Below are positions 11,127-53,043 of a stretch of 62,379 nucleotides of DNA, piece by piece. How positions within the stretch are numbered: position 1 is the stretch's first letter; each line of letters opens with the position of its first letter. The stretch lies in contig NZ_AOII01000038.1 of assembly GCF_000337615.1 (NCBI RefSeq), positions 10,569-72,947 of the forward strand, given 5' to 3'. The DNA comes from Natrinema pallidum DSM 3751 (GTDB lineage Archaea > Halobacteriota > Halobacteria > Halobacteriales > Natrialbaceae). A program made the position numbers and the translations under genes. The notes below the pieces were generated by a model, which did not search any database, had not been told where the DNA came from, and was given only the letters and a program-made list of their open reading frames with translations.

Positions 11127-12242
11127 ATGGTTGACCTGATTGATGTCTTCTTAGAGGGGTTCAAAGACGCCGTCGACTGGGTCATTAGCCTCTTCATGGA
11201 GGGGCTGACGGCTGGCTACGAGACTCTGACAGAGGAGATGTTTGGCACGCCGACGCCTGAGACGGATGGGGCATTCGTCTTCGGCGACCCGATCAACGCT
11301 CCCTGGCAGGCAATCCGAGATGCGTTGGTGGGCGGTGAGATCATGCTGATTTCGTTGCTCCTCCTTTTGATGTGCGTCCAAGGACGGCATACGATCCGGA
11401 TTTTCAATCTCGGGAGTGCATACGAATCTAGACGGACGAAGAAGACCGCCTGGGTTGGAGCGTTCCTTATTATCAGCTGGTACTGGGTGAGTATTCTGGG
11501 CCTCTACATAGTGGATGGATTCACGATTGCTCTGATGCCGAGTCTCAGTTCACTAGGTGATGCGATGCTCAATTTCCTCGAAGTCTCTCTAACGAATCCC
11601 GGGCTTGCACTCGTATTCGCCCTTCTCGGCGGTCTCTCGATGTGGGCCCTAGAGGCACTGTACTTCATTCGAGAGATTCTCCTCTACGTCTACGTGTATG
11701 GAATGCCGATAGCGTTCGCACTTGGCTACGGCAATATCCCGGTTCTCTCCGATATCGCGATGGGATTTACCAAACGGTTCGTCCCGCTCGCAGTTCTTCC
11801 CCTCCCGGCAGCAGTAGTGTTCAAAGGATACGATTTGCTCTACTCGCAAGATGCAATTGCTCCAAATAGCGCGTTTCTGAAGTACTTGGTAGCAGTCTCG
11901 CTACCCCTGATTGCCCTCTATGTCACGTGGAAGACGTTCAAATACGCGACTCCGCTGACTGCCAAGGTCGTCGGTGGTGCTACGAAAGGGGCGGCACTCG
12001 TCGGCGGTGTCGCTGCTGGAGCCTACGTCGGTGGTGCTGGCGTCGCGACGACTGCCGCCCGGTGGGGGCCGAAAGCGGCCGCAGGGCAAGCTGTCGCCCA
12101 GAAAGCAGCCGCCCGAGGAGACAATGGAGATCAGGGCAGCGGTAAGCCGTCGTACCGCAGAACCGAGAACGACCCGGGCGAGCCGACAGCGAACACATCG
12201 AATGACAAACGCGGTATGGAGTTTGATCGAGGGATCCAGTAA
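11127..12242 (+). CDS. VirB6/TrbL-like polytopic membrane protein
   Basis: A 371-residue protein with about five to six membrane helices (roughly residues 70-88, 105-135, 155-180, 183-202, 212-232 and 250-270), followed by an Ala/Gly-rich amphipathic segment and a hydrophilic, charged tail. The N-terminal 60 residues are amphipathic. This topology and its place between exported proteins and the PrgI/VirB4 pair match VirB6-type inner channel proteins of type IV secretion systems. There is no direct sequence signature, so the call rests on topology and gene order. It is 2 bases from each neighbour. Confidence 0.6.
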   Translation: MVDLIDVFLEGFKDAVDWVISLFMEGLTAGYETLTEEMFGTPTPETDGAFVFGDPINAPWQAIRDALVGGEIMLISLLLLLMCVQGRHTIRIFNLGSAYESRRTKKTAWVGAFLIISWYWVSILGLYIVDGFTIALMPSLSSLGDAMLNFLEVSLTNPGLALVFALLGGLSMWALEALYFIREILLYVYVYGMPIAFALGYGNIPVLSDIAMGFTKRFVPLAVLPLPAAVVFKGYDLLYSQDAIAPNSAFLKYLVAVSLPLIALYVTWKTFKYATPLTAKVVGGATKGAALVGGVAAGAYVGGAGVATTAARWGPKAAAGQAVAQKAAARGDNGDQGSGKPSYRRTENDPGEPTANTSNDKRGMEFDRGIQ

Positions 12243-12244
12243 TT

Positions 12245-13366
12245 ATGTCAACCGATAAAGACGCAGCTGCACGGCGAATCATGAATCAGTTCGGAGAGGA
12301 AGGTCGTATCCCGTACCTCAACATCGAGGAGGGTGATGTCGGCGTTCTCATTGCCTTCCCCATTATCGGGTTGTTCGTGGCCGGCCTCACCGGTATCGAG
12401 TCACTTGCCCTCCCGTTCGTAGCTGGCGGCTTGGGCTTCGGCGTGGCCGTCATCTACGTCTCACCGAATCACTTGAACGCCTGGACGTGGACGAAAGACG
12501 TCTATCGGTACGCCAAGCGACCACAGATCACGTTCAGCGCCCCAGACAACGCGGAGAGCGGCACGAATGAGACGACACGGAATGAGGGCGGGTTCGCCAA
12601 CTATACGCCGTTCAAACCCGACGAACGAACCCAGGACCTCACGAACGTCAAGCGGGCGTGGCCCGGCGTTGGTACCATCCAGCGGGCGGACGGGACGATG
12701 GAGGCGTTCGTCGAGATCCAGCCGGGGAACATGGATTTCGCCATGTCCGACGACTGGGCACAGCTCCAGGAGGCTGGCGAGGAATTCGCTAATAAGGAAC
12801 TCGACTCGAAGCTCAAAGTCCACGCTACAACTCGCTCGTTCCCGGTCGAACAAATCATCGAGAATATCGAAAACCGTCTCTCCGACGAAGACGTCACGCA
12901 GAACCCGATCTTCCATGAGTTGCTCGAGGAATACCGGGAGACGCGCCCGAAGGAAATGCGCGACCGGGGCATTCAGCAGGTCCGGTACTACATCGGCGTC
13001 GAGGTCAGCCCTCTGGAGGTCTACGATCGCTACCGAGACGAGGGAACACCTGCTGAGAAGCTCACTAAGTTCCCCGTTATCGGGTTCCTGTTCAACCCGT
13101 TCGTAACACGACGAGAGGACCTCACCGACGTCGAGCGACGTACCCAGATGTTTGAGAAGCTCGACAGTCGCGTCAACGACCTGCGGGCCGAGTTCATCCA
13201 GCAATCCTCTGGCTGGTCCGCTCGTCGCCTTAGTACGGTTGAGCTGTTCGTGCTGAACATGGACTTCTGGAACGGCCGGGAACACGACTACGACGACGCA
13301 GAGCGCGTCGTTCGCGAGCAATCGGTCGTCGGCCATTCGCGCCGGGAGGACGAGTCCGATGCTTAA
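12245..13366 (+). CDS. PrgI/VirB3-like membrane protein with long cytoplasmic domain
   Basis: A 373-residue protein. Residues 1-35 are hydrophilic (GRIPYLNIEEGD), then two membrane helices lie at about 38-75, followed by a long soluble region. The head matches PrgI-type proteins, which sit next to VirB4 in archaeal and Gram-positive conjugation systems and bring the ATPase to the membrane. The soluble part (ITFSAPDN, then beta/alpha sequence) resembles the N-terminal domain of VirB4 ATPases, as if part of VirB4 had moved to this gene. It overlaps virB4 by 8 bases. A role in anchoring or gating the ATPase is inferred from order and topology. Confidence 0.65.
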   Translation: MSTDKDAAARRIMNQFGEEGRIPYLNIEEGDVGVLIAFPIIGLFVAGLTGIESLALPFVAGGLGFGVAVIYVSPNHLNAWTWTKDVYRYAKRPQITFSAPDNAESGTNETTRNEGGFANYTPFKPDERTQDLTNVKRAWPGVGTIQRADGTMEAFVEIQPGNMDFAMSDDWAQLQEAGEEFANKELDSKLKVHATTRSFPVEQIIENIENRLSDEDVTQNPIFHELLEEYRETRPKEMRDRGIQQVRYYIGVEVSPLEVYDRYRDEGTPAEKLTKFPVIGFLFNPFVTRREDLTDVERRTQMFEKLDSRVNDLRAEFIQQSSGWSARRLSTVELFVLNMDFWNGREHDYDDAERVVREQSVVGHSRREDESDA

Positions 13367-15569
13367 CGTCCTTCTCCAGGCCGGTGGGGGGGCAACCGAC
13401 CAGGCCGCCGAGTGGTTACTGAATCCAACGTCGACCGAAGGCGCAGCACTCTACGTCCTTCTAGCCGTCATTCTCGGCGTCGCTGGCAAGCTTCTGTGGG
13501 GTCGATATCACAGCACTAACGACGAGGAGGAAGTCGATTTCTCGGACGTCCTCGACGAGGAGATGCTGGAGGAAGGCAACGCAGAAGGGCAGATCCTGGA
13601 CGACATCTCAGAGTCGCACAAGACGGTAACTGCGCCGGCAGCCATTGAGTGGGAGACGCGAGCAGCCCACGTCGGCGAGCAGTGGACGACGACGCTGTAC
13701 ATCGCCGACTACGCCGACTATCCCAGCGATGGCTATCTGAGCGACCTCTTCGAGATAACCGACGTCGAGTTCGATCTCACGGCTCACATCACGCCGAAGA
13801 ATCAGCAGCGAGCCCGGAACGAACTGCAGGACATCGCGGACGACCTGCAGGTCGACGCCGATATCGAACAGAGCGTCCGTAGCGCCTATCTCCAGGAGCG
13901 AGCGAACGAGGCCGCAGCGACGTACAAGGCCGTCGAGAATGGCGCGAACGTCTTCGACCAGGGGATGTTCATCACCGTCCGGGCCGACGAGAAGGAGGAA
14001 CTCCGGGACGCCGTCCAGAAGGTCAAGAGTGCGCTCCGTGACGACCCCGCGAACCTCACACCGAAAACGGCGATCTGCCGGCAGGACCTCGCGCTCCAGT
14101 CCGCAGCCCCGATCGGTGACAACGAGTTCGGCCGCGAGTCCATCGCGCTCGGCGGCGCCGTCGGGGCGTTACTCTCCTCGCCGCACAACGCGACGATCCT
14201 CGAGGAGGGCGGCGTCGAGTTCGGGATTCACAAGGACAACCAGAGCCCGGTGGTCATCGACCCGTTCGCTCGGGACAACGGCTATGCGATGTTCACCGTC
14301 GGCGACACTGGCTCCGGGAAGTCGTTCAGTTCGAAGCAGAACTTCATCCGCTCGATCGAGCAGAGCAAGGACCGCATCGGCATCATTCTCGAGCCGCTGA
14401 ACAACTGGGCCGGCGTCGCCGAAGCCCTTGACGCCAAGCGGATCACTGTTGGCGGGACGCTCGGGCTGAACCCCCTGGAGATCCGCGAGACGCCCGAGCA
14501 CGTCCAGCGAGCGATGGGCGAGGACGCGAGCCCGTTCAACGAGAAGCTCGACGACGCGATGAGCTTCCTCACCAACTTCTTCGCGCTCCGCGGCATCTCG
14601 CTCGGTGACCGCCGGACGACGCTGGAGCTCGGGCTCAAGCGTGCGTACAAGCGCAACGGCATCACCGACGACATCTCGACGCACGACAACCCGAGTCCGA
14701 CCATCCGGGACATGATGGACGTCTTCGAGGACATGGTCGACGAGCCCGAGGAGTTCGTCGTCCGATCCGACGAGGAGGCGGAGAAGATCAAGGAGGACGC
14801 GACGTGGCTCCTCGACCAGCTTCGCCCCTTCGAGGACGACGGTCGGCACGCCAACCTCGGCCAAGAGTCCGACTTCGACATTCGCGACGAGAAGGTCATC
14901 TACCTCGACCTCGCTCAGCAGGAGGGCAGCGTCGACAGCAGCACGGCGCTGACGATGCAGCTACTCATCTCGCTGGTGTACGAGCGGGCGAAAATCTCGG
15001 AGAAGGAGGTCGTGTTCTACATCGACGAGGCGCGCTACATTATGCAGGATGCCGCGAGTCTGGCGTTCCTCGAAACGGTGTTCCGCCACCACCGGCATCA
15101 CGACCTTTCGATCCGGTTGGTCACGCAGACCGTCGACGAGTTCTTCGAGCACGCCGAATCCGAGGCGATTCTGGACCAGTGCGCGGTCAAGCAGTTCCAC
15201 CGCCTCGACGGGATGGACGAGGAGTGGGCCGACGAGTTCGGCCTGAACTACGCGCAGATGCGGTTCGTCCAGGACGCCGTGCCCGGCAACGAGGACGCTG
15301 GCTTCTCCGAGGCGCTGGTGGGCGTCGATGGCGAGTGGCGTGGCATCCAGGTCAAAGCGATGGCCAAGGAGAAGCAGGTCATCGACTTCGAGCCGACCGA
15401 GCAACGGCGAACCTCACTCCCCGGTGCTGGTGAAGACGCTGTGAATCCGGATATCCAGACATTCCAGGATGACCTCGAAGCCCGAGCAACCGGGAATGGA
15501 GAAACTGCACCCGAGCGGACGCCAGCGGAGACCGATGGGGGCTCAGAGGAAGGTGATGACAATGCGTGA
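13359..15569 (+). CDS. virB4: VirB4-family conjugation ATPase
   Basis: A 736-residue ATPase with one N-terminal membrane helix (about residues 25-45), a VirB4-like N-domain, a Walker A motif GDTGSGKS at about residues 315-322 and a Walker B motif YIDEARY with Asp556. Downstream elements include HHRHHDLSIRLVTQT and a C-terminal acidic tail. VirB4 hexamers power assembly and substrate transfer in type IV secretion. The gene overlaps both the PrgI-like gene and the next gene by 8 bases, so all three are probably translationally coupled. Together with the VirD4-like gene it is the strongest evidence that this element is, or was, conjugative. Confidence 0.88.
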   Translation: MLNVLLQAGGGATDQAAEWLLNPTSTEGAALYVLLAVILGVAGKLLWGRYHSTNDEEEVDFSDVLDEEMLEEGNAEGQILDDISESHKTVTAPAAIEWETRAAHVGEQWTTTLYIADYADYPSDGYLSDLFEITDVEFDLTAHITPKNQQRARNELQDIADDLQVDADIEQSVRSAYLQERANEAAATYKAVENGANVFDQGMFITVRADEKEELRDAVQKVKSALRDDPANLTPKTAICRQDLALQSAAPIGDNEFGRESIALGGAVGALLSSPHNATILEEGGVEFGIHKDNQSPVVIDPFARDNGYAMFTVGDTGSGKSFSSKQNFIRSIEQSKDRIGIILEPLNNWAGVAEALDAKRITVGGTLGLNPLEIRETPEHVQRAMGEDASPFNEKLDDAMSFLTNFFALRGISLGDRRTTLELGLKRAYKRNGITDDISTHDNPSPTIRDMMDVFEDMVDEPEEFVVRSDEEAEKIKEDATWLLDQLRPFEDDGRHANLGQESDFDIRDEKVIYLDLAQQEGSVDSSTALTMQLLISLVYERAKISEKEVVFYIDEARYIMQDAASLAFLETVFRHHRHHDLSIRLVTQTVDEFFEHAESEAILDQCAVKQFHRLDGMDEEWADEFGLNYAQMRFVQDAVPGNEDAGFSEALVGVDGEWRGIQVKAMAKEKQVIDFEPTEQRRTSLPGAGEDAVNPDIQTFQDDLEARATGNGETAPERTPAETDGGSEEGDDNA

Positions 15570-18500
15570 GTACCTTCGCGTGACGCCGACATCCGAACAA
15601 CTCACGCCGGAGCGTGTGCCCCAGGAACTGGAAAGCCTCCACAAACTGACCGCAACGGACTCGACAGGGCTGGTCGACAAACTGAATCCACTACATAGCG
15701 AGACACCGCCCCGGTTCGAATTCCTCGCACTCAGTGACGGTGCGGATGAGCCCGTCGAATTCTACTACGGGGCCAACGAGCATCTGGACACTCTCGAGAA
15801 GCGTCTCCGGTCGATCTATCCCGAGACGTTCGACATCGAACGCACCGAGGTCGACGTTGCATTGCGACTCGTGCAGCCCGTCGAATTCGACCAGGAGACA
15901 TTCGTCGAGCAGTATGAGTCGGGCGACCTCCAGTACGAATTCGGTCCTGACGAGCAATACGAGTTGGCGACTGACGACAACAATCAAACCGAGCTAGTAG
16001 ACGCCGAATCAGCCGCGGATGGAGAGACGGTCGCTAACCCATCTGTTGACCACATCATCGAGATCGGGGATACTGCCCTCGAGCTCGCCCCACCAGATAC
16101 GATTCCCAGAGATGAGCCGGTGACAACGCTGGCGAAACCAACGATGACGTCAGAGGGAACAGTACTTGCCCGGCCAGCGACTGATACCGTCTCCCCACTC
16201 GGCGTCCGGTGGCAGGTCTCGGCGACTCGGAAACAGGACTGGATGTCTTCGCTCTCGCCGTTCACTGGCGACGATGTAGACGATAGTCCCGATGCCGTCG
16301 ACCAGCCTGGTGGCGCGCTCGCGTCGCTCGTCGATGACTTGACGGAGGCGAGTGCCCCACTAGCGTTCCACGTCGTCTTCCAGCGACGGGCGAGCTGGCA
16401 GAGCGATGCTGAAGTTCGCACGGAAGACATCATCGAGGGGCGGGATACCTGGGCGCAGCGGTTTTTGGGGCCACTCTTGGAGTTTGACGACGGCTCCGAC
16501 CGCCGAAGCCGGGAGGAGTTGAGTGACACACAAACAGCTCGTGTCGGAGCCATCGAAGCGAAAAACGCGAAGCGCTCGTTTACCGCGAATATTCGCGCCC
16601 TTGGCGTTCCATCCAGTGACGACGAGCGTGAGGAACTCGACGAGCGGTTGGAATCACTTGCCCCCGTCTTCGATACACTCGATGGGCCGTGCTACGAAGT
16701 GGAGGCCGAACGGGTGCGCGACAACGGCTTGCGGCAGGCCAAAAAAGAGCAGCACGCACGAACCGCGCTGCAACGGCTTTTGGACCGCGAGCTTACGACC
16801 GGCCGTGGCAAGACTCGACCCGAGTTCGTCCTGAGCGGCCGCGAACTCGCGAACTTCCTCGTCGTTCCCTCTTCGGACCAACTCTCCGTGGAAGGCGAAC
16901 GTGGAACGCGTGCGGAACAACAGAGTCGGAATCCGCTCGCCCGGCCTCACCAGGACATTATGAGCGAGTTCCGTGACGGGATGGCTATCGGGTATGCCCT
17001 CGACGACACTGGCGACCCCGAAGATGTCCCGACACACATTCCGCCCCGCTTACTGCCGATGCATTACGGACGATTCGGCACCACCGGCTCAGGCAAGTCA
17101 AAAGCCCTCCTCAACGATATGCTCTCGTTGTACGACAACACTGAGGGGCCGACCATCCTCGTCCTTCCGAAAAACGACGAGATGGCGCAGAACTACATGC
17201 GGGCCCACGCGCGCCGATTCGGGATGACCGACCTCGAGGAGAACGTCGTCCACTTCCCGATCCCGGACGTGCTTCCCGGATTCTCCTTTTTCGATCTCGA
17301 ACCCTCGCTGGAGAGTGGCCGCCGCCGTGAGGATGCAGTCCGGCGAAAAGCCGACCACTACGAAGAGATCCTGAAGCTCGTCATGGACGAGGACCGATAC
17401 AAGCGGGCGACGGTCGCCCCAACCCTCATCAAGACGCTCATCACCGCGCTGTTCGACGAGGAATACGGCCGTGAAAACGGCCAGTACCGGGAGTCAACCG
17501 ATTACTTCGCCCACCGACAGCTCGAACACGTCATCGACCAGCTGTGGGAAGCCGGCCCGCCACAGCCGAATCTCGCAGACGCACCCCGATCGAGCGACGA
17601 GGAGGTCTCCCGCATGATCCGGCGGCAATTCCAACACGATTCGACCACCTTCGACAACGTGATGGGTGGGGTCACGCACCGCCTCAACTACATCTCACAG
17701 AACCCTCACCTGCGCCGCATCTTCAACAACACCGAGAGCCAGTTCGACTTCCGAGAAGTGCTCGACGATAACCAAGTCATCCTGTTCGACCTCGGCGATC
17801 TTCGCGACGAGGCCGCCCGGATTATGACGGGCATGATCCTCACCAATCTCGACGACGCGCTCAAAGATCGCAAGCGCGACCTCACCCAGTACTCCGATGA
17901 CTACGTCGTGAACCTTCTCGTCGACGAAGCGGCCTCAGTCGTGGTCTCCGATATCATGAACGACCTCCTCGAGAAAGGACGAGGATTCCGGCTTTCAGTG
18001 GGCCTCTCAATGCAGTTCCCCGAGCAACTGGAAGCTGAAGGTGGGCGGAAAGTCTACCTGAACGCCCTGAACAACATCGGGACCTCACTCGTCAGCAAGA
18101 TCAACGTCGACCGAGAACTGGCTCGGGCGATGGCCCACGAGGAGATGGACCCGGACGATTTCGCCAACCGGATTCGCTCGTTACCCCGTGGCGAGTGGAT
18201 CGGCAGCGTCCCGAGCCCAACATTCGGAGAAACCGGGCCGTATCCGTTCAGTCTCACACCGCTCGAAATCCCGCCGGGCCATCCCGAGAGTGAGTACCCG
18301 CTGACACAGCGTGAAGAAGAACAGTTCACTGAGACGCTCGCCTCGATGCACGAGGACATCAGTGACGACTACGGGGTGCCAGCGGAATCAAATGTGTCCA
18401 CAGCGAGCGCACCTGCCGAATTACACGAGGTACTCAGCATCGAAAGCGACGACCTAGACGTCGCGCTAGCGAAGGTGGTTCGAAGCCGCCAGCTTCGAGA

Positions 18501-19884
18501 CGGCTGTCGGGAAGAGAACGGCTGGGTAGATGTCGAAGCGGTTGACGAGGAACTCAGGCGGCTCTTCGGAGAGGTTGATGCCGAACCACCGTCGTATGAG
18601 GAACTAGCAGATATCCGCGAGCGGTCACGCCATCTCGATACGACCGTCGATATCGAAGCAGACGAAATACGGATTCGATTGACCGACGCTGGCGAAGACA
18701 TCGCGACACCCGAGACTGGGGACGTACAAGCCGCCGGCGGACATGACCACGATACGGCACTCCTCCAGATCGAAGAAGAACTCAGCGAACTCGGCTGCAC
18801 CGTCTCAATCCTCGCCCAGGATGGCAGCGAGAAACCTGACGCGAGGGCGAGCCACCCCGACGTTGCCGACCGATTCGCCATCGAGGTCGAAACGACGACA
18901 CCTGAGAATCCCGCGAAAGTGCTCACGAACCTCCGGAAAGCCCAAGAGGCAGGGGATATCCCGCTGTTTGTCGTTCGACCAGGAAACGATGAAACTGAGT
19001 GGGCCAAGCGTGTCGACGGCATTCTCACACCACCCGTCCGTACCCTCCAGAACAGTGAGACGCGGTTCTACACGACCGACTCGAATCTCACGTTCAACGG
19101 CGGAGCGACCGAAGAAGGCGGGGTGACGGCCGTGCGACCGGCGAACGGCGACGAGAACGGGACTCAGAACATCTGGCTGCGTGATGGCAACGAGATCGTC
19201 CTCCGTGATACCAGCGGAACGGAACACATCTGCCTCCCGTCGCTTGGGAAACTCTCGAAAGACCGTGTGCCAGCCATCTACAGCTACGACCACGCTGCCG
19301 AGGAGTACGTCGTATATGAGCACGGTGAGCAACACATCTACGAGACGAAATCGGCGTTCGAGGGCGACTGGGTGCGTATCAAGAAGCCATTCGTCCCCGA
19401 AGCCGAACTCCCCGTACCAGACTACACACGTTCGACGTATGGCATCGTTATCCTTCACGATGAGGCGGAATCGGTCGTATATGAAAACGATGAGAAGCGT
19501 CCACTCTCGGCAATCACCGACGGGCCGCTCCGTCCGGCATCGCCCGAATCAGCGGCCGCTGACGAACTACCTAGTCAGATCGAACAGGCAGATGAGACTG
19601 TCGAGGAAGACCAGGAAGACCAATCGCCACCTTCTTTCGAATCGTTCGTCGACGAATATCTTATCGAAGACGTGGATGGGGCCGTGCCGAAAGATGACGT
19701 ATTCGGCCTCTACAACGACTGGGCAGAGGCACACGGCATCGATGATCCGCTGAATAAGAGCTGGTTCACACGGAAGCTCAACACCCACATCGAGGTGGAC
19801 TCCACGAAGAAGCGAATCGACGGGGAACCCGTCTGGCATTACACTGGTGTCCGCATTCGCTCTGAAGAGAGATCAGAGTCATGA
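15562..19884 (+). CDS. VirD4/TraD-like coupling ATPase with nuclease-like and D5-like C-terminal additions
   Basis: A 1440-residue protein; ATG 15562 overlaps the end of virB4 by 8 bases. Residues about 1-450 form an N-terminal scaffold. The motor follows, with Walker A GTTGSGKS (506-513) and Walker B LLVDEA (Asp788), as in VirD4/TraD/HerA-type coupling proteins. After residue about 1000 come additions not normal in coupling proteins. Residues about 1070-1150 contain a PD-(D/E)XK-like pattern (KPD with Asp1093, then IEVETTT with Glu1108 and Glu1110). The final 80 residues (FESFVDEYLIED, YNDWAEAHG, WHYTGVRI) resemble the winged helix at the end of D5-type primase-helicases. It probably brings DNA to the channel. 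The nuclease and DNA-binding roles of the tail are inference. Confidence 0.8.
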   Translation: MREYLRVTPTSEQLTPERVPQELESLHKLTATDSTGLVDKLNPLHSETPPRFEFLALSDGADEPVEFYYGANEHLDTLEKRLRSIYPETFDIERTEVDVALRLVQPVEFDQETFVEQYESGDLQYEFGPDEQYELATDDNNQTELVDAESAADGETVANPSVDHIIEIGDTALELAPPDTIPRDEPVTTLAKPTMTSEGTVLARPATDTVSPLGVRWQVSATRKQDWMSSLSPFTGDDVDDSPDAVDQPGGALASLVDDLTEASAPLAFHVVFQRRASWQSDAEVRTEDIIEGRDTWAQRFLGPLLEFDDGSDRRSREELSDTQTARVGAIEAKNAKRSFTANIRALGVPSSDDEREELDERLESLAPVFDTLDGPCYEVEAERVRDNGLRQAKKEQHARTALQRLLDRELTTGRGKTRPEFVLSGRELANFLVVPSSDQLSVEGERGTRAEQQSRNPLARPHQDIMSEFRDGMAIGYALDDTGDPEDVPTHIPPRLLPMHYGRFGTTGSGKSKALLNDMLSLYDNTEGPTILVLPKNDEMAQNYMRAHARRFGMTDLEENVVHFPIPDVLPGFSFFDLEPSLESGRRREDAVRRKADHYEEILKLVMDEDRYKRATVAPTLIKTLITALFDEEYGRENGQYRESTDYFAHRQLEHVIDQLWEAGPPQPNLADAPRSSDEEVSRMIRRQFQHDSTTFDNVMGGVTHRLNYISQNPHLRRIFNNTESQFDFREVLDDNQVILFDLGDLRDEAARIMTGMILTNLDDALKDRKRDLTQYSDDYVVNLLVDEAASVVVSDIMNDLLEKGRGFRLSVGLSMQFPEQLEAEGGRKVYLNALNNIGTSLVSKINVDRELARAMAHEEMDPDDFANRIRSLPRGEWIGSVPSPTFGETGPYPFSLTPLEIPPGHPESEYPLTQREEEQFTETLASMHEDISDDYGVPAESNVSTASAPAELHEVLSIESDDLDVALAKVVRSRQLRDGCREENGWVDVEAVDEELRRLFGEVDAEPPSYEELADIRERSRHLDTTVDIEADEIRIRLTDAGEDIATPETGDVQAAGGHDHDTALLQIEEELSELGCTVSILAQDGSEKPDARASHPDVADRFAIEVETTTPENPAKVLTNLRKAQEAGDIPLFVVRPGNDETEWAKRVDGILTPPVRTLQNSETRFYTTDSNLTFNGGATEEGGVTAVRPANGDENGTQNIWLRDGNEIVLRDTSGTEHICLPSLGKLSKDRVPAIYSYDHAAEEYVVYEHGEQHIYETKSAFEGDWVRIKKPFVPEAELPVPDYTRSTYGIVILHDEAESVVYENDEKRPLSAITDGPLRPASPESAAADELPSQIEQADETVEEDQEDQSPPSFESFVDEYLIEDVDGAVPKDDVFGLYNDWAEAHGIDDPLNKSWFTRKLNTHIEVDSTKKRIDGEPVWHYTGVRIRSEERSES

Positions 19885-20235
19885 AATGGACGTACACGGT
19901 CCAATTCCCGATATCATCGCGACATCTCGGGGCCTGTTCCACCCAAGCAGAATCATGATTTCAACTCACCAGACTCACAAGTCGAGAATCACCCGACAGC
20001 GGTATGTTCCACCCAAATTCTCAATGGGTGGAACACCAACGAACCGACCGAAATGGGTGGAACACACTCACGTCCAGGGATTTTCAACCAGATATAGCGG
20101 GTGTTCCACCCAACAACCAACTAGGATAGAACGGGGGGTCCCCGTTGGGACCAAGGGATTGGATCGAGACGTAGAGCAGCGTGAAGTCTGTGCTGGCTCA
20201 GAGCCAGTGAGAGCCATGCGAGGTACTGTGTGAGG
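19885..20235. promoter_or_regulatory. Gap with five TGTTCCACCCA repeats and a GC palindrome (candidate oriT or operator)
   Basis: The 11-bp word TGTTCCACCCA occurs at 19935-19945, 20005-20015 and 20102-20112 on the plus strand, and inverted at 20025-20035 and 20054-20064. The second and third copies form a dyad with a 9-base spacer. A further palindrome, 7-bp arms around three bases, is at 20130-20146. No convincing gene lies here. Iterated and inverted repeats between a coupling-protein gene and a primase-like gene are what one expects of an oriT, an iteron region or a strong operator. Which of these it is cannot be decided from the sequence. Confidence 0.6.
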
Positions 20236-21498
20236 ATGAGTGAGATTAGTATCGACGAACCGGAGCAGATCCCGGAGTCGTTACGCGAACGCGACCAATG
20301 GGTGTGCTGGCGAGAAGAGGAGCGAGACGGCAAACCGACGAAGATTCCGGTGACGCCGGGGGCTGGGGGGTTCGCGTCAGCAACCGAGTCAGAGACCTGG
20401 GCGAGTTTCGAGACAGCACTCGAGTACACCGAGACGAAGCACGCTGATGGTGTCGGGTTCGTGTTTACTGACGACGATCCCATCGTCGGCGTCGACCTGG
20501 ACGACTGCCGCGATCCCGAGACAGACGACATCGACGATACGGCGCTGGACATCATTGAGCGACTCGACTCCTATACGGAGATATCTCCATCCGGCACCGG
20601 CTATCACGTCCTGATTACCGGCACACTCCCAGACGGGCGGAACCGGCGCGGAAGCATCGAACTGTACGACACAGCACGCTTTTTCACCGTCACTGGCGAC
20701 CACGTCGACCGGACACCCACTCGCGTTGCACGCCGGCAGGACGCGCTCACAGCGATTCATCGCGAGTACGTCCAGGACACCGAGCGTGACACAGCACCCG
20801 AGTCCGAACAGCGTGGTGACGCTGACGACCGGTCACCGACGACCGGTGCAGCTGACGTTGACGTCGACCTCGACGACGAGGACCTCCTCGAGAAAGCGCG
20901 AAACGCATCGAACGGCGAGAAGTTCGAGCGGCTCTGGAACGGGAATACGGCCGGCTACGACAGCCAGTCCGAGGCCGACATGGCGCTGTGTTGTCTGCTA
21001 GCGTTCTGGACCGGCGGCGACCGGACGCAGATGGAACAGTTGTTCCGCCAGTCGGGATTGATGCGGGAGAAGTGGGACGAGGTTCACTACGCTGATGGGT
21101 CAACGTACGGGGAGAAGACCATCGAGCGTGCGATCGCGACTACTTCGGAGTTCTACAACCCGGACGCCGGCGACGACGCCGCAGATTCCCACGACGCACC
21201 TGGCGGGGTCACTGCTGGCAGTACTCCTGACGACGCAGACCGGAGTCATGCGTATCTGGCGGAGAAAAACCGACTGTTGAGCGAGCGCGTCGACGAGCTC
21301 GAAGCAACACTCGAACAGAAGACGGAGCGGATCGAGACTCTCGAAGCAGAGGTCGAGCGGCTCACCGACGAACTCGCAACCCGTGACCGGGAGACTGCGC
21401 AGTCTCACGAGGAAGACTCCGGTACTGCGAGAGAGACCGATGACGATTCAGAATCACCCTCTATGTTGAGTCGATTCTTCGGTGGCCAGTCCGAGTAG
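20236..21498 (+). CDS. Primase-polymerase-like protein with C-terminal coiled coil
   Basis: A 420-residue protein; ATG 20236 is preferred to the GTG two codons upstream. Residues 1-190 resemble the archaeo-eukaryotic primase-type domain of phage and plasmid primase-polymerases, with WVCWREEERDGKPTKIPV, the acidic pair in VGVDLDDCRDPE, and TEISPSGTGYHVLITG, GSIELYD and ARFFTVTGDH. Residues about 230-310 form a helical domain (ADMALCCLLAFWTGGD) known from such proteins, which counts repopulated cells of a PriCT-like fold. Residues about 335-395 are a heptad-rich coiled coil. Likely role: priming of transferred single-stranded DNA or of element replication. It follows the repeat-bearing gap, and a related domain occurs in the gene at 51346-52791. 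Confidence 0.7.
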   Translation: MSEISIDEPEQIPESLRERDQWVCWREEERDGKPTKIPVTPGAGGFASATESETWASFETALEYTETKHADGVGFVFTDDDPIVGVDLDDCRDPETDDIDDTALDIIERLDSYTEISPSGTGYHVLITGTLPDGRNRRGSIELYDTARFFTVTGDHVDRTPTRVARRQDALTAIHREYVQDTERDTAPESEQRGDADDRSPTTGAADVDVDLDDEDLLEKARNASNGEKFERLWNGNTAGYDSQSEADMALCCLLAFWTGGDRTQMEQLFRQSGLMREKWDEVHYADGSTYGEKTIERAIATTSEFYNPDAGDDAADSHDAPGGVTAGSTPDDADRSHAYLAEKNRLLSERVDELEATLEQKTERIETLEAEVERLTDELATRDRETAQSHEEDSGTARETDDDSESPSMLSRFFGGQSE

Positions 21499-23535: not shown

Positions 23536-23826
23536 ATGACTGGACCTGATATCCTCGACGACACGACGGACGACTACGAACGACTCGAAACCGAACTCGT
23601 TGCCCAGAACCGGGATGCGGCCCGGGTCTCGACGGCGGACGTCGACGAGCGGAGTGCCCGCCGTCTCGTTGATGAACTCATCGAGGACGATGTGGTGACA
23701 CCGGTCCCAGACCAGCGCGTCCTCGTTCACGAGCCGAGTGACGAGGCCTTCGACTCGATCACCCAGCTCGCCGTGTTCCATCGCGGCTGGCAGGCCGCGA
23801 CCGACGCCGACGCGGAGGACGACTGA
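23536..23826 (+). CDS. Small acidic protein, possible winged helix
   Basis: A 96-residue protein starting at ATG 23536, just after a family B element. Residues about 12-60 (ERLETELVAQNRDAARVSTADVDERSARRLVDELIEDDVVTPVPDQRVLVHEP) suggest a short helix-turn-helix followed by a beta wing. No family recognised. Its stop overlaps the start of the zinc-binding gene (TGATG), so the two are translationally coupled. Confidence 0.55.
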   Translation: MTGPDILDDTTDDYERLETELVAQNRDAARVSTADVDERSARRLVDELIEDDVVTPVPDQRVLVHEPSDEAFDSITQLAVFHRGWQAATDADAEDD

Positions 23827-24161
23827 TGCAACAGACGCTTTCCGGGTGTGCGTTCTGTGATTCACCGCCTGGGTCAGAGATGGGCGAGGCGCATACGTGG
23901 GGGAAAGACGAACGGGTGACACACCCGATCTGTGTCGACTGTGCCGTCCAAGAGCGGCCGGATCCCGAGGAGCGCGACCACCACACCTGCGACGGGTGTG
24001 GGCTCGTCGTCGACGCCCTCGCAGCGCTCACGCGTTTCCGTGTGGAACTCGGCCATCTCGAGGGGCCGCTGCAATTTTGCGAGCGATGTAATCCCGGCGG
24101 ACTTGCAACGTACTGGACGCGCGACCTCGAGGAGCATCTTGTCCAAGAAGTCAGCAAATAA
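23826..24161 (+). CDS. Small zinc-binding protein with three CxxC-type pairs
   Basis: A 111-residue protein with three Cys pairs: CAFC near residue 8, CVDC near 37 and CDGC near 55, plus a later CERC. Enough ligands for two zinc ions. Haloarchaeal accessory regions hold many such proteins (for example DUF7558-like). The spacing resembles treble-clef or double zinc-ribbon folds. Likely DNA, RNA or protein binding; no enzymatic motif seen. Coupled to the upstream gene by a one-base overlap of stop and start. Confidence 0.6.
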   Translation: MQQTLSGCAFCDSPPGSEMGEAHTWGKDERVTHPICVDCAVQERPDPEERDHHTCDGCGLVVDALAALTRFRVELGHLEGPLQFCERCNPGGLATYWTRDLEEHLVQEVSK

Positions 24162-25853: not shown

Positions 25854-27225
25854 GCCTCAGGGTCAAGCCCTGAGGCTTTCGCGTGGACTCCCGTTCTATG
25901 CCTCAACCGAGGCAGGGGGTACGTGTTCCCCACTCACGTTCAGCGTCCCGCGATTCAAGCGCACATCTACGGGTGCGCCTCCATCGTCTGCGTTTTGCTG
26001 ACGACGGAGATACTGCAAACCGATGTTCTTCGAAGCGTTGTAGTCGGCGTGGTTCTCATACCCGCACTGCTGACACTCGAACGACTCGCCCGATCGATTG
26101 GTGCCGTGGGTAAACCCACACGTCGAACACCGCTTCGACGTGTTGCGCGGGTCAACCTGTACGACTTCGACACCGTGTTCTTTGGCTTTGTATTCGACGT
26201 ACTCGTAGAGGCGTCGAAACGCCCAGACGTGTTGCCACGTCGCCTCGGGAATATTCTCCCGAATGTGGGTCAAGTCCTCAAACACGATGTGCGAACAGTC
26301 GTTCTCGACGGCCTCCTCGATAAGTTCGTTCGCCACCGTGTGCAAGTGTATCTCGAACCGCCCGTACTCTTTCTGTCCGACTGACTCGATGGTTTCATGG
26401 GCGTGGCGAGACCCACACTGCTGAAGCGACCCACGACGCTTCTCGTATTCCCGACGCCAGTGGTTGAACTCGTCTGCCGACCAGAATCGCCCCGTCGAAG
26501 TAACGGCGAGATTGTTCACGCCCAAATCCACACCAAGGACTGTTCTGTGCTTGGATTCGGATTCAGATGGTTCCTCGTTTGCTTCGACTTTACGCATTGA
26601 GGCGTGGAGATACCAGTCACCGTCGCGGTATTGTAAGTGCGCCATCCGAAACTCGAAATCCTCGTCGGAAACGTACTTCGTCGGCGGTGTCTCCGAGTCG
26701 TCGGGGAGGATGTAGTCGCACTCGACCCGCCCGTTTATGGTCGAGAGGGAAACGTGGTCGCGGTGGAATGTCGCACTCCGCTTGTCGTAGACTGCGCTAT
26801 CGGCAGAAAAGTACGGTTGCGACGTGTTCTCACCACGTTCGAGACGCGAGACTCCGCTTTTGACGGCTTCGACCGCCCGCCGAATCCCTTTCTGGACGAG
26901 ATTCGCGGTCAGGTCGGTTTCGTCGCGGAGTCGGTCGTAGAGGGCACGTTCCGCTTTGGCTTTTGAGGTGACGTGGTATCCGTCGTCGCCGTGCCAGCAC
27001 CACTCACTCGCGGTGTTGGCGCAGTGTTTGAACTGCTTGACAGTCTCTCGAAGGGAGTCGTCAACTCCTTCGGGAGTGTCGAGTTTGATGACGGCGGTAC
27101 GACGGTATTCCACTGTATTTTCACATATACAGTTTGTGTTACTTATGGGTTTACGAGTTGGCCTGCCATCGTAGCGTGGTTTGTATTGTCTGGTGTCGGC
27201 CTCCCCAACCTCGAGGGTCGGGGCA
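25854..27225 (-). mobile_element. IS1341-type (IS200/IS605 superfamily) element 1, TnpB only
   Basis: Solo-tnpB element. Downstream of tnpB is a perfect 9-bp hairpin (25854-25862 with 25868-25876) followed by CTTTnnnGTGGACTCCCG, a block shared with the third TnpB element (56866-56883). Upstream of tnpB a CCCC...GGGG foldback lies around 27203-27222. Subterminal hairpins and the lack of inverted ends or target duplication are typical for this superfamily. No tnpA is present, so mobility depends on one elsewhere. The downstream hairpin region probably contains the guide RNA (omega/reRNA) scaffold, on the minus strand. Confidence 0.7.
25896..27113 (-). CDS. tnpB: TnpB RNA-guided endonuclease, intact RuvC residues
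   Basis: A 405-residue TnpB. The three RuvC acidic residues are visible: Asp196 in GVDLGVNN, Glu279 in IVFEDL and Asp357 in NHADYNASKN. A zinc finger is formed by Cys329/Cys332 and Cys347/Cys350. TnpB proteins cut DNA with an RNA guide taken from the element end and help the element persist after excision. The N-terminal start, MEYRRTAVIKL, aligns with that of the third TnpB (MDVRRTAVVKL). All key residues are present, so it may be active. Confidence 0.88.
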   Translation of the reverse strand: MEYRRTAVIKLDTPEGVDDSLRETVKQFKHCANTASEWCWHGDDGYHVTSKAKAERALYDRLRDETDLTANLVQKGIRRAVEAVKSGVSRLERGENTSQPYFSADSAVYDKRSATFHRDHVSLSTINGRVECDYILPDDSETPPTKYVSDEDFEFRMAHLQYRDGDWYLHASMRKVEANEEPSESESKHRTVLGVDLGVNNLAVTSTGRFWSADEFNHWRREYEKRRGSLQQCGSRHAHETIESVGQKEYGRFEIHLHTVANELIEEAVENDCSHIVFEDLTHIRENIPEATWQHVWAFRRLYEYVEYKAKEHGVEVVQVDPRNTSKRCSTCGFTHGTNRSGESFECQQCGYENHADYNASKNIGLQYLRRQQNADDGGAPVDVRLNRGTLNVSGEHVPPASVEA

Positions 27226-27896
27226 TCCGCCTCGTACCGCCTGTGAAAGCCCTCGGCCGCTCGGCATCCCGCGCCCCACGCTGCGCTCCTCGTTCCTCCG
27301 GTGCTAGCGGGGTCGGGGGACGACCGAGGCGGCCTCGCCCTTTCTGAGTCCGCCAGGATATCGGCTGTGTCACTGAGCGTCGGGCTCGGTTGAACGGTGT
27401 TTCTCTACGGCCCGCCCCGCTCGCCGCGTTCCGCCCTCCGCGTCGCTCGCGACCGACCATTCCGGGCGTGCGGGCGCTCTCCGCACCGCCCGCGCCCGTT
27501 CCGGGCTAAAATGGATGTGCCCTCGGCGCCAGCGGGTATCCCCGTCGGTTGCGCCCCTTGCGGGCTTTCGCGTTCCAGCGCTTTATGCCGCCTGCGCTGT
27601 CGCGCGCCACACCGCGGCGCGCGTTCTCGGCGACAGTCGCCCTGGACACGGACCCGCACATCGGGCCGGACACGAGCGGGCATATCCCGCTGGCCGCTCG
27701 CTCCGGGCGGGTCGGCGCGCGGTGCTGGATGATCGTCCGCCTCGGGCGCGCTCTCGCTCGCGCCCACAGGGCGCTCGCGAAGGCGCGAGCGAGAGCGCGC
27801 AGATGGTTCTGTCGGTCGTTGTCGTCGAGGAAATCCGCGATGTTGTAGCATCGCGGGGTCGGGCGCGTGAGCGCCTTCGGAGCTGTACTAACTCCA
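27226..27896 (+). ncRNA. GC-rich structured region upstream of the ssDNA-binding gene, candidate structured RNA
   Basis: A 670-base stretch with no credible gene; open frames in it are Arg/Pro-rich on every strand. Perfect stems: 27601-27608 with 27616-27623 (outer extension 27597-27602 with 27631-27636); 27675-27680 with 27686-27691; a 19-bp stem 27746-27764 with 27782-27800; 27835-27842 with 27849-27856; and 27862-27866 with 27871-27875, closed by a GTGA loop of GNRA type. It ends 21 bases before the start codon of the OB-fold gene. It could be a long 5' leader, a separate RNA or a replication structure. Confidence 0.55.
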
Positions 27897-28763
27897 ATGT
27901 CAAGTAAGAACGTCTTCGGTAATGAGGTTTCGGTCGATGAACAGGCTTTCGAGAAACACGATGAAGCCGAGGTCGACGAGGACGGATTTGAGGTCGTCGA
28001 CGAGACCCCGGAGTTCCGGGCGACGGTCGACATGGAAGTGCAGGCAAAGGTCGATTCCAACCATCCGGACGCGCGGGTCGAGGAAGGTCCGGATCACCTG
28101 TTCGGGAAGACCCTCGAACAGGAAGAGCGCATCGAGGCACGGGAGGCCGAGCTGGAGCACATCAGTGCCCAGGCGGAACTCAGTCAGCAGGAGGGACGCG
28201 CGAAGCGGACGCGGGAGGTCGTCGTCGAGCAGTGTGGCCGTGACGAGCCCGAACCGGTGGAGCGCACGGATCCCCGAGAGAAGCTAACGCAGGAAGACCT
28301 CGGGGCGGTGAACAAGCAAGCGATGCGGATTAAGGAGGAAGTCGATGGCGGCTGGTCGAGGTCAGTCGTCGCGAAGCAGTTGGCCGAGAAGGTGCAGCGC
28401 GGCCAAGACATGACGAAGGCAGTACTGGAGACGCTCGAGGAGCTAAAGGCGGTCCCAGGTGCAATCGTGCCCATCGCGGATGTGCCGGACGTCCCGGTCG
28501 GGGAGGGGACGGTTGAAGGAACAATCGAGACCCTCTGGGAGCCTTCCTCCTCAAGCATCCAGCAAGTCGGGCTGATAGCAGATGAGAGCGGGAAAATCAA
28601 GTTCACCTGCTGGGAGAAATCCGGGCAGACGGTGGTGCGAGAAGGTCAGACAGTGCGGTTCCGGGCAGCAGCCAAGAACTGGTACGAAGGCCGGTGCTCA
28701 ATCGCGCTGACCGGGTGGTCGGATATCCACTTCCCGGAGCGCGGCCGCTGGTGGGAAGAGTAG
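27897..28763 (+). CDS. RPA-like single-stranded-DNA-binding protein
   Basis: A 288-residue protein; ATG 27897 is used since the codons before it lie in the structured leader. The N-terminal half is acidic and helical. Residues about 185-285 form an OB fold of the replication protein A type (IADVPDVPVGEGTVEGTIETLWEP, GKIKFTCWEKSG, VREGQTVRFRAAAKNWYEGRCSIALTG). Likely role: coating of single-stranded plasmid DNA during replication or conjugative transfer. It stands alone behind the structured region, with a T-rich terminator-like tract at about 28779-28787. Confidence 0.75.
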   Translation: MSSKNVFGNEVSVDEQAFEKHDEAEVDEDGFEVVDETPEFRATVDMEVQAKVDSNHPDARVEEGPDHLFGKTLEQEERIEAREAELEHISAQAELSQQEGRAKRTREVVVEQCGRDEPEPVERTDPREKLTQEDLGAVNKQAMRIKEEVDGGWSRSVVAKQLAEKVQRGQDMTKAVLETLEELKAVPGAIVPIADVPDVPVGEGTVEGTIETLWEPSSSSIQQVGLIADESGKIKFTCWEKSGQTVVREGQTVRFRAAAKNWYEGRCSIALTGWSDIHFPERGRWWEE

Positions 28764-31313: not shown

Positions 31314-31412
31314 AGGCCACAATACGATTTTCGGTTGTATGTCTGTAGGCTGATTGATGTGAGAGCCATTGTTTAAATCCGAAGACGAAGCATGATACGG
31401 CCAGATCACTCT

Positions 31413-32300
31413 ATGACCGACCAGTACGCCGACTACGAAGCCCTCCGACCGCTCGGCGAAGCGACCCACGTTCCCGATGACCAACTCGCCAGTAGTAGTG
31501 GCGAGCCCCGGCGCCAACGCTCTGGTGGCGTCGACGCGGGCTATCCAGACGACCCGACAGCAGATGCGACCGAGTGCGCTTCCTGTGGAGCGTCGATCCC
31601 CGCTGGCCAGTCGAAGTGCCGGTTCTGTCTCACGAACCATCTCGAAGCAGCCGATGATCAGGACACATCGACTGCCGAACGGACTCTCCTCCACGTCATC
31701 CAGCTACTCGTTAAGGCGTCGACGTTCTACGGCGCCGTCGGGAAGGGATCTGCTGCGGCCACCCTCCTCGCGAAGGCAGATGATGACCCAGTAGTCGATG
31801 ACTGCAAGCTAATCTATGATCTCGACGAGGAACCGGCCCCACAGCTTGTCGATCAGTGGCCCTCGCTCCCCTCGGCGACACGGGTCACGTCTGAATGTGG
31901 TAATCAGCTGCTCGCGGCTGCTCGTGAGCGGACGGCGTGGACAGAGACGACGCAGTCCTGTCACGACGGCGAGCACGCGACGTTTCTCTACGACGAAACC
32001 GGGAGCGAGGTTTGTACCGAAGCTCGTCTTGCAAGCCTACGTGAGGACGCAGACGACGACCTCTGGCTGGTGCCAGCGATTGCGCTCCAGGAATCCGTTG
32101 ACAAGACCGATACCGAACAGCCACTACGTGAGCGTCCAAACAGAACCCACCTCGAGTGTCGGGAGTGTGGTCGGGAGACTAAGTATCGATTTCGCGAATT
32201 CGAGGCGATCCCCGATGACGAGTGGACCGGGCAGCCCATGTGGGAGTGTCAGCGATGCGGGACACCCCGCTATGGGCCCGAACCCGAAGCCAGTCAGTAG
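31413..32300 (+). CDS. Double zinc-ribbon protein of haloarchaeal accessory regions
   Basis: A 295-residue protein (start ATG 31413; ATG 31392 is possible). It has an N-terminal zinc ribbon CASCGA...CRFC (about residues 51-68) and a C-terminal one, CRECG...CQRCG (about 247-285), with an acidic helical middle. Similar haloarchaeal plasmid proteins have been labelled 'biosurfactant protein 1' in annotations, a name with no functional support visible here. Two ribbons at opposite ends suggest a nucleic-acid-binding or adaptor role. It lies 100 bases after tfb on the same strand. Confidence 0.6.
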   Translation: MTDQYADYEALRPLGEATHVPDDQLASSSGEPRRQRSGGVDAGYPDDPTADATECASCGASIPAGQSKCRFCLTNHLEAADDQDTSTAERTLLHVIQLLVKASTFYGAVGKGSAAATLLAKADDDPVVDDCKLIYDLDEEPAPQLVDQWPSLPSATRVTSECGNQLLAAARERTAWTETTQSCHDGEHATFLYDETGSEVCTEARLASLREDADDDLWLVPAIALQESVDKTDTEQPLRERPNRTHLECRECGRETKYRFREFEAIPDDEWTGQPMWECQRCGTPRYGPEPEASQ

Positions 32301-42296: not shown

Positions 42297-43238
42297 GTGA
42301 TGCAATCCATGATGACAGCTAGTGAGTCGGGAGTCTCGTTCGAGGAAACCGACACCCGACACGACGAGATGCACAGTACGATCGAAGACTGGATCGACGA
42401 GCTCGTCGCAGACGTCGACGAGGCAAAAGCCAGCCAACAGTTCCAGGAGTGGCTCGATGTCCAGTCCCGATTCCATGACTACTCACATCGCAACACCCTC
42501 CTGATCAAACTCCAGTATCCCGAGGCGACCCGCGTGGCGGGCTACAATACGTGGAGATCGGAGTTCGACCGGCATGTCCAAGAGGGCGAACAGGCGATCT
42601 GGATCTGGGCACCCATTATTACGAAGCAGTGCCCGGAGTGCGAGAACTCACCGAGCTACCACGAGCAAAGCGACTGTGACTACGACGAGACACCGCCCGA
42701 GGAGTGGTCGAAAGGACTGGTTGGATTCAAACCAACGGCAGTCTTCGATGTGTCTCAAACCGAGGGCGAACCGCTACCCGAGCTGGAAACCGAGGCAGCT
42801 GGTGACGCCGACGACCTGGTGCCAGCGCTCCTTGATGCGGCAGCTACTCTCGATGTCGACGTCCGTGTCGTCGACGCTGCCGAGTGGGAGCATGGCGACG
42901 CGAAAGGCGTCTGCAAACACCGGACTCTCCACGAGGGCCAGCCCGTCGTCGAAGCGAAAGCCCGCTCAAATCAGGCCGATCTCGCGGTGACATTGGTTCA
43001 CGAGTACGCCCACGCGCTGCTTCATTTCGATGGCGACGACGAGCCCGAGCGCGCAAAACGCGAGGTCGAAGCGGAAGCCGTTGCGTACATCGTCGGGCGG
43101 TATTTCAACCTGGATACGAGCGGGTCAGCGTTCTATCTTGCCGCGTGGCAGGACGACGATGCGGAGAGCATTCAGGAGCGACTCGGCCGGATCAGTTCGA
43201 CCGCGCAGGAGATCATCGGGACGGTCGCCGAGAGCTGA
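42297..43238 (+). CDS. ardC: ArdC-like antirestriction protein with metallopeptidase motif
   Basis: A 313-residue protein (GTG 42297; ATG 42300, 42309 and 42312 also possible). Residues about 45-140 match the ArdC N-terminal ssDNA-binding domain (FHDYSHRNTLLIKLQYPEATRVAGYNTW, QAIWIWAPI). The C-terminal part has a zinc-metallopeptidase motif, HEYAH (residues 235-239). ArdC of conjugative plasmids binds single-stranded DNA and protects incoming DNA from restriction. Its presence in a conjugative element fits that role. A Cys-rich insertion (about 107-125) is unusual. Confidence 0.8.
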   Translation: MMQSMMTASESGVSFEETDTRHDEMHSTIEDWIDELVADVDEAKASQQFQEWLDVQSRFHDYSHRNTLLIKLQYPEATRVAGYNTWRSEFDRHVQEGEQAIWIWAPIITKQCPECENSPSYHEQSDCDYDETPPEEWSKGLVGFKPTAVFDVSQTEGEPLPELETEAAGDADDLVPALLDAAATLDVDVRVVDAAEWEHGDAKGVCKHRTLHEGQPVVEAKARSNQADLAVTLVHEYAHALLHFDGDDEPERAKREVEAEAVAYIVGRYFNLDTSGSAFYLAAWQDDDAESIQERLGRISSTAQEIIGTVAES

Positions 43239-48107: not shown

Positions 48108-48960
48108 ACCCTTGTGGAGTTGTAACCGGGCGAAAACAGGCTATCTAACGACTACAGACCCGTATCCTCTGAATGAATCGGATACCGTCTTCGGAATCTA
48201 TCCCCCTCCGTTGTCGATTTGTAACGGTTCGACGATAGCGAGCTTCGTCGATCTTCCTCGATGGGCCGGACCCCCCGTTTTCGAGTTGTAAGATGTTGGG
48301 GAGCGGTAACACACCTGGTTCGATGCTCCCACCCTCACGTTGTAAGGAGAAGTGAGTCGAGGTGGGTCTCGGAGTAAAATCCACATAATCCGGATTTTGT
48401 GAATGTTGCTCAGGGTGATACGGTCTTTCTCACACTCCCCGTTTTCGAGTAGTAAGCGCCAGAATAGTTGCGAAAGAACGACGCTCGTAGAACCCGTTCA
48501 CGAGTGAGAGGAATGCCGGGTTTCGGACATGATTGCTGGTGAAGCTGCTTTGGTGATCTCGAATGTTTCACCCCCTCCCCCCTTTTTCGAGTTGTAAGTC
48601 GATGGGAACAGGTCACACCAGACGCCATGTAACGAGCGTTGAGTTAACAGAAGTTGGCGTAGAGGCGATGAGACATGATAGTACACGGGATCAGAACCAC
48701 GGACGAGATGAAGAGGTTATCTACTCCAGAGATCTTAATCGTCTAGCCGGAGCTAGACGATTTGTTTTCTTTGTCTCTAGTGCGGTTATGGTAAGGTAAT
48801 GTGCAACATAAACTTTCGCATTTTTAGTCACAAGTTAGAAGATGAGGTGCTCACCCCCTCTATCGTGTATATCTGCCACAATCAGCTATTTTGCAGTCTC
48901 TCTTGCTATTCACCCCTCCCCGCCGTGACGAGTTTACAACTCGAAAAAGGGGGGAGGGGG
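48108..48960. repeat. Replication origin: ORB repeats flanking an AT-rich unwinding region
   Basis: Same-orientation ORB copies lie at 48202-48224, 48271-48291, 48331-48345 (weak), 48436-48455 and 48571-48597, plus a weak half copy at 48108-48125. One inverted copy lies at 48934-48960. Between the last forward and the inverted copy (48598-48933) is an AT-rich tract without an evident gene. Inverted ORBs around an AT-rich DUE next to orc1/cdc6 is the standard haloarchaeal origin layout. Confidence 0.82.
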
Positions 48961-49100
48961 TTCGTCTGGTTTAGTCTGTGATACCGATTTTGATGAATGA
49001 GGAGTTCAAACGTTGTCGGACTTCGATTCCGGCACTAATTCGTAATTTCCTATCTTCTGAGCCGGTTCCCTCGAACACTTGGATCCAAATCGTCTCACTA

Positions 49101-52791: not shown

Positions 52792-53043
52792 TCCCGATAT
52801 TGTTTTGCCAATTCGCGGATTTTCTCTTTTTTCTTCCTGATGTTCACCGAATGCCACCTCGAAAATTCTTCTATAGAAATGTTTGTTCGAGCCCCCACTT
52901 AGCTCGGCTACTCAGGATGTTGTACAACTGCTCGTCGTGGTACTTATCCATCCGGACGTGTTCGCTGGAGCGCAGTCGGCTCACGAGGCGGTCGTCGACG
53001 CGGCCGAACAGCTCCTCTTCCTTGTTCGCGATGCAGATAATCG
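52792..53043 (-). pseudogene. Fragments of the partition-partner gene and of the second orc gene
   Basis: 52792-52888 is about 85% like the 3' end of the gene at 54490-54930 (the FGEHQEE coding segment). Directly after it, 52889-53043 copies part of the second orc gene (about 50365-50520, encoding IANKEEELFGRVDDRLVSRLRSSEHVRM). Neither is complete. They mark an old rearrangement and are reported for their structure only. Confidence 0.7.

Follow-up and report, generated by a model that had tools for sequence, protein, structure and literature searches.

A candidate transfer origin of haloarchaeal conjugative elements, with class-specific repeats, a conserved hairpin core and a putative reading domain in the coupling protein

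The segment at 19935-20148 is probably the transfer origin (an oriT/clt-like locus) of a haloarchaeal conjugative element, a reading that includes the mechanism proposed below and draws on comparative sequence analysis and structure prediction. It lies in a stretch of 62,379 nucleotides from Natrinema pallidum DSM 3751 (contig NZ_AOII01000038.1), referred to here as the window, and comprises five copies of TGTTCCACCCA followed by a conserved bulged hairpin. The repeat class exactly tracks the C-terminal domain of the adjacent coupling protein, a tie absent from the initial annotation; this domain is predicted to be an RFX-type winged helix, so the repeats are probably bound by it. The initial annotation had proposed an oriT, with an iteron-type replication control or an operator of the primase gene as alternatives. 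Its first proposal is now the best-supported reading, given the same gene order in relatives, the position between transfer genes and a leading-type region, and solo units of repeats and core.

Position and layout of the locus

The window contains an integrated haloarchaeal element with glycan genes on either side and no tRNA genes. Genes resembling a type IV secretion system (T4SS) occupy about 8.1-19.9 kb on one side of the repeats and encode a TrbL-like protein, a VirB4-like ATPase and the coupling protein. Beyond the repeats lie genes for a primase, an RPA-like single-stranded DNA-binding protein (SSB), TFIIB, an ArdC-type protein, orc1/cdc6 and an integrase. The main genes are as follows.

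11127-12242, plus strand: TrbL/VirB6-like membrane protein
13359-15569, plus strand: VirB4-like ATPase of a type IV secretion system
15469-19884, plus strand: VirD4/TrwB/HerA-like coupling protein, 1471 aa (Pfam TrwB_AAD_bind, Pox_D5; NCBIfam TraD, CedB)
20236-21498, plus strand: NrS-1-type primase-polymerase, start ATG at 20236 (Pfam PF22763; synteny)
27867-28763, plus strand: RPA-like SSB, kept in all seven elements compared
42297-43238, plus strand: ArdC-N/peptidase protein of antirestriction type
59004-60419, minus strand: phage-type integrase near the right end of the element (PF00589, below cut-off)

The match of the coupling protein to TrwB_AAD_bind falls below the family cut-off, its Pox_D5 match is located at the C-terminus, and its TraD and CedB matches are weak. 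The primase carries an NrS-1 HBD domain and is presumed to be the first gene of the leading region. Three secreted or membrane proteins, VirB4, the coupling protein, the primase and the SSB are common to seven of seven elements, a comparison that includes a quite different plasmid of Natrinema thermotolerans. A DUF7558 protein (23826-24161) retains at least 80% identity even in this distant plasmid and is an unusually conserved leading-region gene. Most of the conjugative elements compared also have in common the gene at 31392-32300, which carries the NCBIfam name 'biosurfactant protein 1' (MBSP1, E 4e-137) yet encodes a zinc-ribbon protein. Three TnpB/OrfB-like genes are present (25896-27113, 52883-54388 and 56888-58150), with an Rfam match to the sense overlapping transcript sot0042 at the end of the second (54258-54428).

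The repeats and core lie between the T4SS genes and the primase, SSB and ArdC genes, and specifically, as the initial annotation had stated, in the gap between the coupling-protein and primase genes. Each repeat listed below is an exact match whose position is kept in class A relatives, with distances given from the core.

19935-19945, plus strand: repeat 1, TGTTCCACCCA, at -182
20005-20015, plus strand: repeat 2, left half of the dyad, at -112
20025-20035, minus strand: repeat 3, right half of the dyad, at -92
20054-20064, minus strand: repeat 4, at -63
20102-20112, plus strand: repeat 5, adjoining the core, at -15
20117-20148, plus strand: conserved core, bulged hairpin CCAAC-(TAGGATAGAAC)-GGGG-GGT-CCCC-GTTGG (core pattern matches and stem covariation)

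The ++--+ order originally described and the dyad of the second and third copies, with its 9-bp spacer, were both confirmed. Only two further exact copies of TGTTCCACCCA occur in the whole genome of 3,915,814 bases, where the reversed control pattern has 0 matches, which argues that the exact copies are not due to chance. Degenerate copies elsewhere in the window are mostly chance occurrences, since 22 matches with up to two mismatches were found in the window against 12.65 expected. The GC palindrome AACGGGG-GGT-CCCCGTT, previously listed as a separate feature, is present at 20130-20146 and forms the inner part of the longer hairpin at 20117-20148. The array extends to 182 bp from this hairpin, with its positions kept among relatives. 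The hairpin core is a candidate nic or processing site.

A search of 392 genomes from the order found relatives of the coupling protein in 252. About 60 of these, together with 80 further named loci from another collection, were used to read the gap between coupling protein and primase, some genomes being present in both sets. Wherever the primase follows, the plan is constant: an array of short repeats, then the conserved core directly after the last repeat. This layout, with repeats at fixed distances from the core, is kept in more than 100 haloarchaeal relatives, and the synteny of coupling protein, 300-450 bp and primase persists down to about 50% identity. Relatives with the same gene order thus carry both array and core, with repeat letters that vary by class. 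The core lies downstream of the coupling gene in 75 of the 80 independently found named loci. In the other five (L223-L227) and in L073-L077, the C-terminal domain is present and the core is not directly downstream. These are pNG300-type coupling proteins with an RFX-like tail, in which the next gene follows at once with no core.

The general form of the core is CCRAC-(11 nt TAGTATAGANN)-GGGG...CCCC-GTYGG, based on 51 distinct 32-nt cores. The pattern CCRACTAGKATAGNNNGGGG has 49 matches in the 392 genomes and its reversed control 0. Bases of the stem pair in 88.4% of cells (47 of the 51 distinct cores), and the outer-stem pairs co-vary among distinct cores, with pair 3 occurring as A-T or G-C and pair 1 as C-G, A-T or G-C. 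The covariation score is 0.140 for 47 sequences compared with 0.068 after shuffling (0 of 500 shuffles as high), and slid controls score below the true alignment. This covariation is compatible with either a single-stranded hairpin or a dyad, because paired changes would also arise in a double-stranded dyad that a protein dimer reads. The outer stem is absent in four core variants (the L205-, L220-, L197- and L214-types). An RNA leader was considered and rejected: its consensus fold supports the core hairpin only, and the further stems seen by eye between core and start codon are unsupported. An Rfam search gave no match at the repeat/core locus.

Repeat class and the C-terminal domain of the coupling protein

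The repeat letters fall into at least 11 classes among the relatives, most of which begin with GTT or GTC. Repeat sequences include TGTTCCACCCA, TGTTACGGCAA, GTTACGACAG, TCTTACGGCAA, CGGTCAGGGG, TGTCCAGGCAA, TGTCAGGGCAA, TGTCCAGGGTAA and others. There are two layouts, each with its own fixed set of repeat positions relative to the core. Class A repeats stand at -182, -112, -92, -63 and -15, and class B has the same layout (-180, -121, -101 and -14). Classes D, T, X, Y and Z adopt the other (-100, -71, -57 and -26), with which class C has -100, -58 and -26 in common. Iterated and inverted element-specific sites therefore stand next to a conserved core, as expected of an oriT. In L064 and L181 the arrays in the gap after the coupling gene are unusual: another type of repeat occurs (around CCGCATCGCAA), with single TTCCACCCA- and TTACGGCA-like copies mixed in.

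The repeats adjoin the end of the coupling-protein gene, which encodes the two regions below.

18709-19086, plus strand: predicted PD-(D/E)XK nuclease domain, aa 1081-1206 (structure model)
19405-19881, plus strand: class-specific C-terminal region (about aa 1313-1471), including a predicted RFX-type winged helix at aa 1385-1466

When a class A element is compared with a close class B or C element, the body of the coupling protein is about 70-97% identical, whereas identity falls abruptly to 23-38% in the last ~150 residues (the residue index in this comparison being shifted by 8). Among class A members of similar relatedness, the same residues are 65-90% identical. Where body identity exceeds 0.9, within-class identity of the C-terminal domain is 0.88 and between-class identity 0.32, a difference that 0 of 20,000 label permutations reach. 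In trees of 119 sequences, with ten whose repeats are unclassable left uncounted, the domain tree requires 10 changes of repeat class, the fewest possible for 11 classes, and the body tree 26. Layout changes once on the domain tree and six times on the body tree. The primase is as similar between repeat classes as within them.

Because class follows the domain and neither the body nor the primase, domain and repeats appear to travel together as a swappable cassette between the conserved pump body and the core. The domain adjoins the repeats, so one shared recombination tract could carry both, although linkage by itself would be expected to yield some mismatched pairs. A functional tie beyond this linkage is suggested by two observations: no mismatched pair of domain and repeats was found among the labelled loci, and distant class A members keep the repeat while their domains have drifted to roughly 35-50% identity.

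A profile search with the C-terminal domain identified RFX5 (E 0.0015) and RFX1. The predicted structure of aa 975-1471 (pLDDT 84.8) aligns with the RFX1-DNA structure 1dp7 at Z 11.7 and rmsd 1.7 A over 75 of 76 residues, and with RFX5 at Z 11.1. A Foldseek match of the model to the RFX DNA-binding domain has E 8e-4. The likeness to the RFX1 and RFX5 DNA-binding domains lies in the predicted fold at about 15-19% identity, and here the domain is part of a DNA pump rather than a transcription factor. Exact class tracking together with the predicted RFX-type fold thus points to the repeats as probable binding sites of this domain.

A second coupling-protein lineage, annotated with a TraM recognition domain, is found in N. 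thermotolerans and Halomontanus rarus. It ends in a similar C-terminal domain and is accompanied by the same core and the repeat TGTCCAGGGTAA. A sister lineage (L228-L231), with about 54% identity or less, ends at about alignment residue 979 without the C-terminal domain. These proteins end in another stretch with a D...ExE look, followed directly by an apparent PriS-type primase frame, an arrangement that is possibly a parallel solution.

A predicted nuclease domain and the relaxase question

Known relaxase families were absent by Pfam and NCBIfam among the window ORFs scanned, and MOB-suite called 180 of 181 related plasmids non-mobilizable. Reviews describe archaeal conjugative plasmids without a recognisable relaxase (PMC12857230, PMC9905601). 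Thermococcus pT33-3 and the Sulfolobus conjugative plasmids, for instance, encode VirB4/VirD4-like ATPases and no recognisable relaxase (PMC12857230, PMC9905601); the present family is haloarchaeal. Rep-Arvir, a group of DUF7845-type rolling-circle endonucleases, has been described from archaeal elements, among them integrative and conjugative ones (PMC13107129, 2026), and this family had no match among the long window ORFs scanned.

The coupling protein itself contains a candidate. When aa 1081-1206 are modelled alone (pLDDT 76.8), archaeal Hjc is the top match, with Z 9.3 and an rmsd of 2.1 over 78 residues (Foldseek E 2.9e-3); VRR_NUC, FAN1, TnsA and restriction enzymes come next. D1124, E1139 and E1141 are invariant in 52 sequences and form a D...ExE pattern, with Glu where the catalytic Lys usually stands. 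The 52 domain sequences had no match in Pfam, nor was there a sequence-level match in the PDB, so the PD-(D/E)XK assignment comes from the predicted structure. The fold and these three residues make the domain a candidate nuclease, and a candidate for the relaxase seemingly missing from archaeal conjugative plasmids. MOBC relaxases such as TraX of pAD1 and MobC of CloDF13 have a PD-(D/E)XK fold, here predicted, but in this family the fold resides inside the coupling protein with D-x-ExE residues, and Replic_Relax (PF13814, the MOBC family) had no match among the 52 domain sequences searched against Pfam. TraX binds five direct repeats 70-120 bp from nic (PMC12857230). The fuller proposal, that pump, site-reader and nickase are combined in one chain, with the PD-(D/E)XK domain cutting the core as a new kind of relaxase and the RFX-type tail setting specificity, is tentative and falls somewhat short of being probable. 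If true, this one chain would be the missing relaxase of haloarchaeal conjugation.

In bacterial oriT loci such as that of F, a conserved hairpin core and variable, element-specific accessory sites lie between the transfer genes and the leading region. Here, in contrast, specificity is apparently read directly by the coupling protein, and a relaxase is not recognisable.

TraB of Streptomyces reads clt, which lies near traB, by its C-terminal winged helix. Among known systems, this one is functionally the closest: its translocase reads short plasmid-specific clt/TRS repeats, and no relaxase is known (PMC12857230, PMC4170104). The comparison concerns a translocase, adjacent repeats and a swappable reader, here predicted. 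The likeness is one of architecture, as the repeats lie near the translocase gene and their class covaries with its own predicted DNA-binding domain. It raises the alternative that the pump reads the repeats as TraB does and moves double-stranded DNA, the core not being a nick site. The reader domain on the translocase with repeats beside it (as in PMC12857230 and PMC4170104) and the lack of a recognisable relaxase among the scanned ORFs favor this alternative. It is nevertheless unlikely, because the conserved hairpin core and the adjacent primase, RPA-like SSB and ArdC genes fit single-stranded processing better. Other features also differ: TraB is an FtsK-type single-protein pump, whereas the present protein has VirD4/TraD/CedB-like matches (VirD4/HerA-like), with VirB4 and TrbL genes upstream as in a VirB4/TrbL-type T4SS, an RFX-type reader and a predicted nuclease domain.

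Solo sites, other readings and the proposed mechanism

Repeats and core also occur without coupling protein or primase, in L110, L111, L115, L116 (two sites) and L117. These solo sites are defined within the fetched stretch, about 5 kb on each side where the contig allows, with primase absence determined by tblastn. Their existence indicates that repeats and core form a cis-acting module that can stand apart from the primase gene. When solo-site class was compared with the class of the coupling protein sampled in the same genome, class D agreed in two genomes, and Halobacterium sp. DL1 has a class B solo site alongside a class A element. As the class is not always that of the genome's sampled coupling protein, solo sites are no proof of mobilisation, and they could be remnants of decayed elements. 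Three Natribaculum megaplasmids (L124, L125 and L118) carry a solo site within a common block of roughly 370 bp. N. longum has its left flank in common with N. luteum and its right flank with N. breve, as if recombination had crossed the site. The three copies differ too little for their substitution pattern to reveal selection on the core.

An operator or promoter function, in which the repeats autoregulate the primase (leading) operon and the core is a promoter with 5' leader, is distinctly improbable. In most loci about 90-120 bp separate the core from the downstream primase start, and the core contains a TATA-like stretch, TAGTATAGA; it may thus have a double role as primase promoter. However, the TATA-like letters are lost in several lineages that keep the stem, the partner with which the repeats covary is the coupling protein's domain, not the primase, and solo sites, which hold repeats and core with no primase gene, argue against a pure primase operator. 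The second original alternative, in which the primase would serve an iteron-type replication origin or an incompatibility locus, takes the iterated repeats beside the primase gene as its support and is very unlikely. It is the coupling protein and not the primase that the repeats follow, and the element has orc1/cdc6 with five or six ORB-like repeats (CCCCCCGTTTTCGAGTTGTAA) beside it at 48109-48961, including a perfect 28-bp inverted pair, which is likely a separate replication origin. A partition (centromere-like) site can hardly be credited: repeats with dyads and a ParA-like ATPase (54933-55844) are present, but parA is 35 kb distant and found in only two of seven elements, while repeats and core are general. 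Evidence for a viral packaging site was not found: searches of viral contigs, using either the coupling protein or the core pattern as query, gave no match, and no phage record matched.

Under the transfer-origin reading, the coupling protein would grip the five TGTTCCACCCA sites through its RFX-type winged helix, and this specific grip would load the pump on its own element only. The RFX-type tail would position the nuclease domain and the pump at the bulged-hairpin core, where the DNA would be opened or nicked directly past the last repeat; the protein's own PD-(D/E)XK domain may do this. A single strand would then leave through the pump, and the primase, SSB and ArdC genes would be the first to enter the recipient; the presence of these genes beyond the core suggests single-stranded transfer. 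From the conserved layout, compensating core changes, co-inheritance of class and domain, two predicted folds and absence of a recognisable relaxase, all computed here, we infer binding and nicking, the strand moved, its direction and the transfer itself. Covariation and the predicted fold lend strong support to the proposed binding step, the origin-of-transfer role is the best-supported function in view of position, conservation and solo sites, and nicking at the core is put forward as a hypothesis.

No haloarchaeal oriT and no description of this locus were found in the open literature (subscription papers lying outside its scope). The locus offers a concrete and widespread candidate oriT with a candidate reader and a candidate nickase, testable in Haloferax. 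At least 11 DNA codes and their predicted reading domains form a natural swap series, useful for the study of RFX-type DNA recognition and plasmid-specific mobilisation. If the reading is right, archaeal conjugation gains its missing DNA-recognition step.
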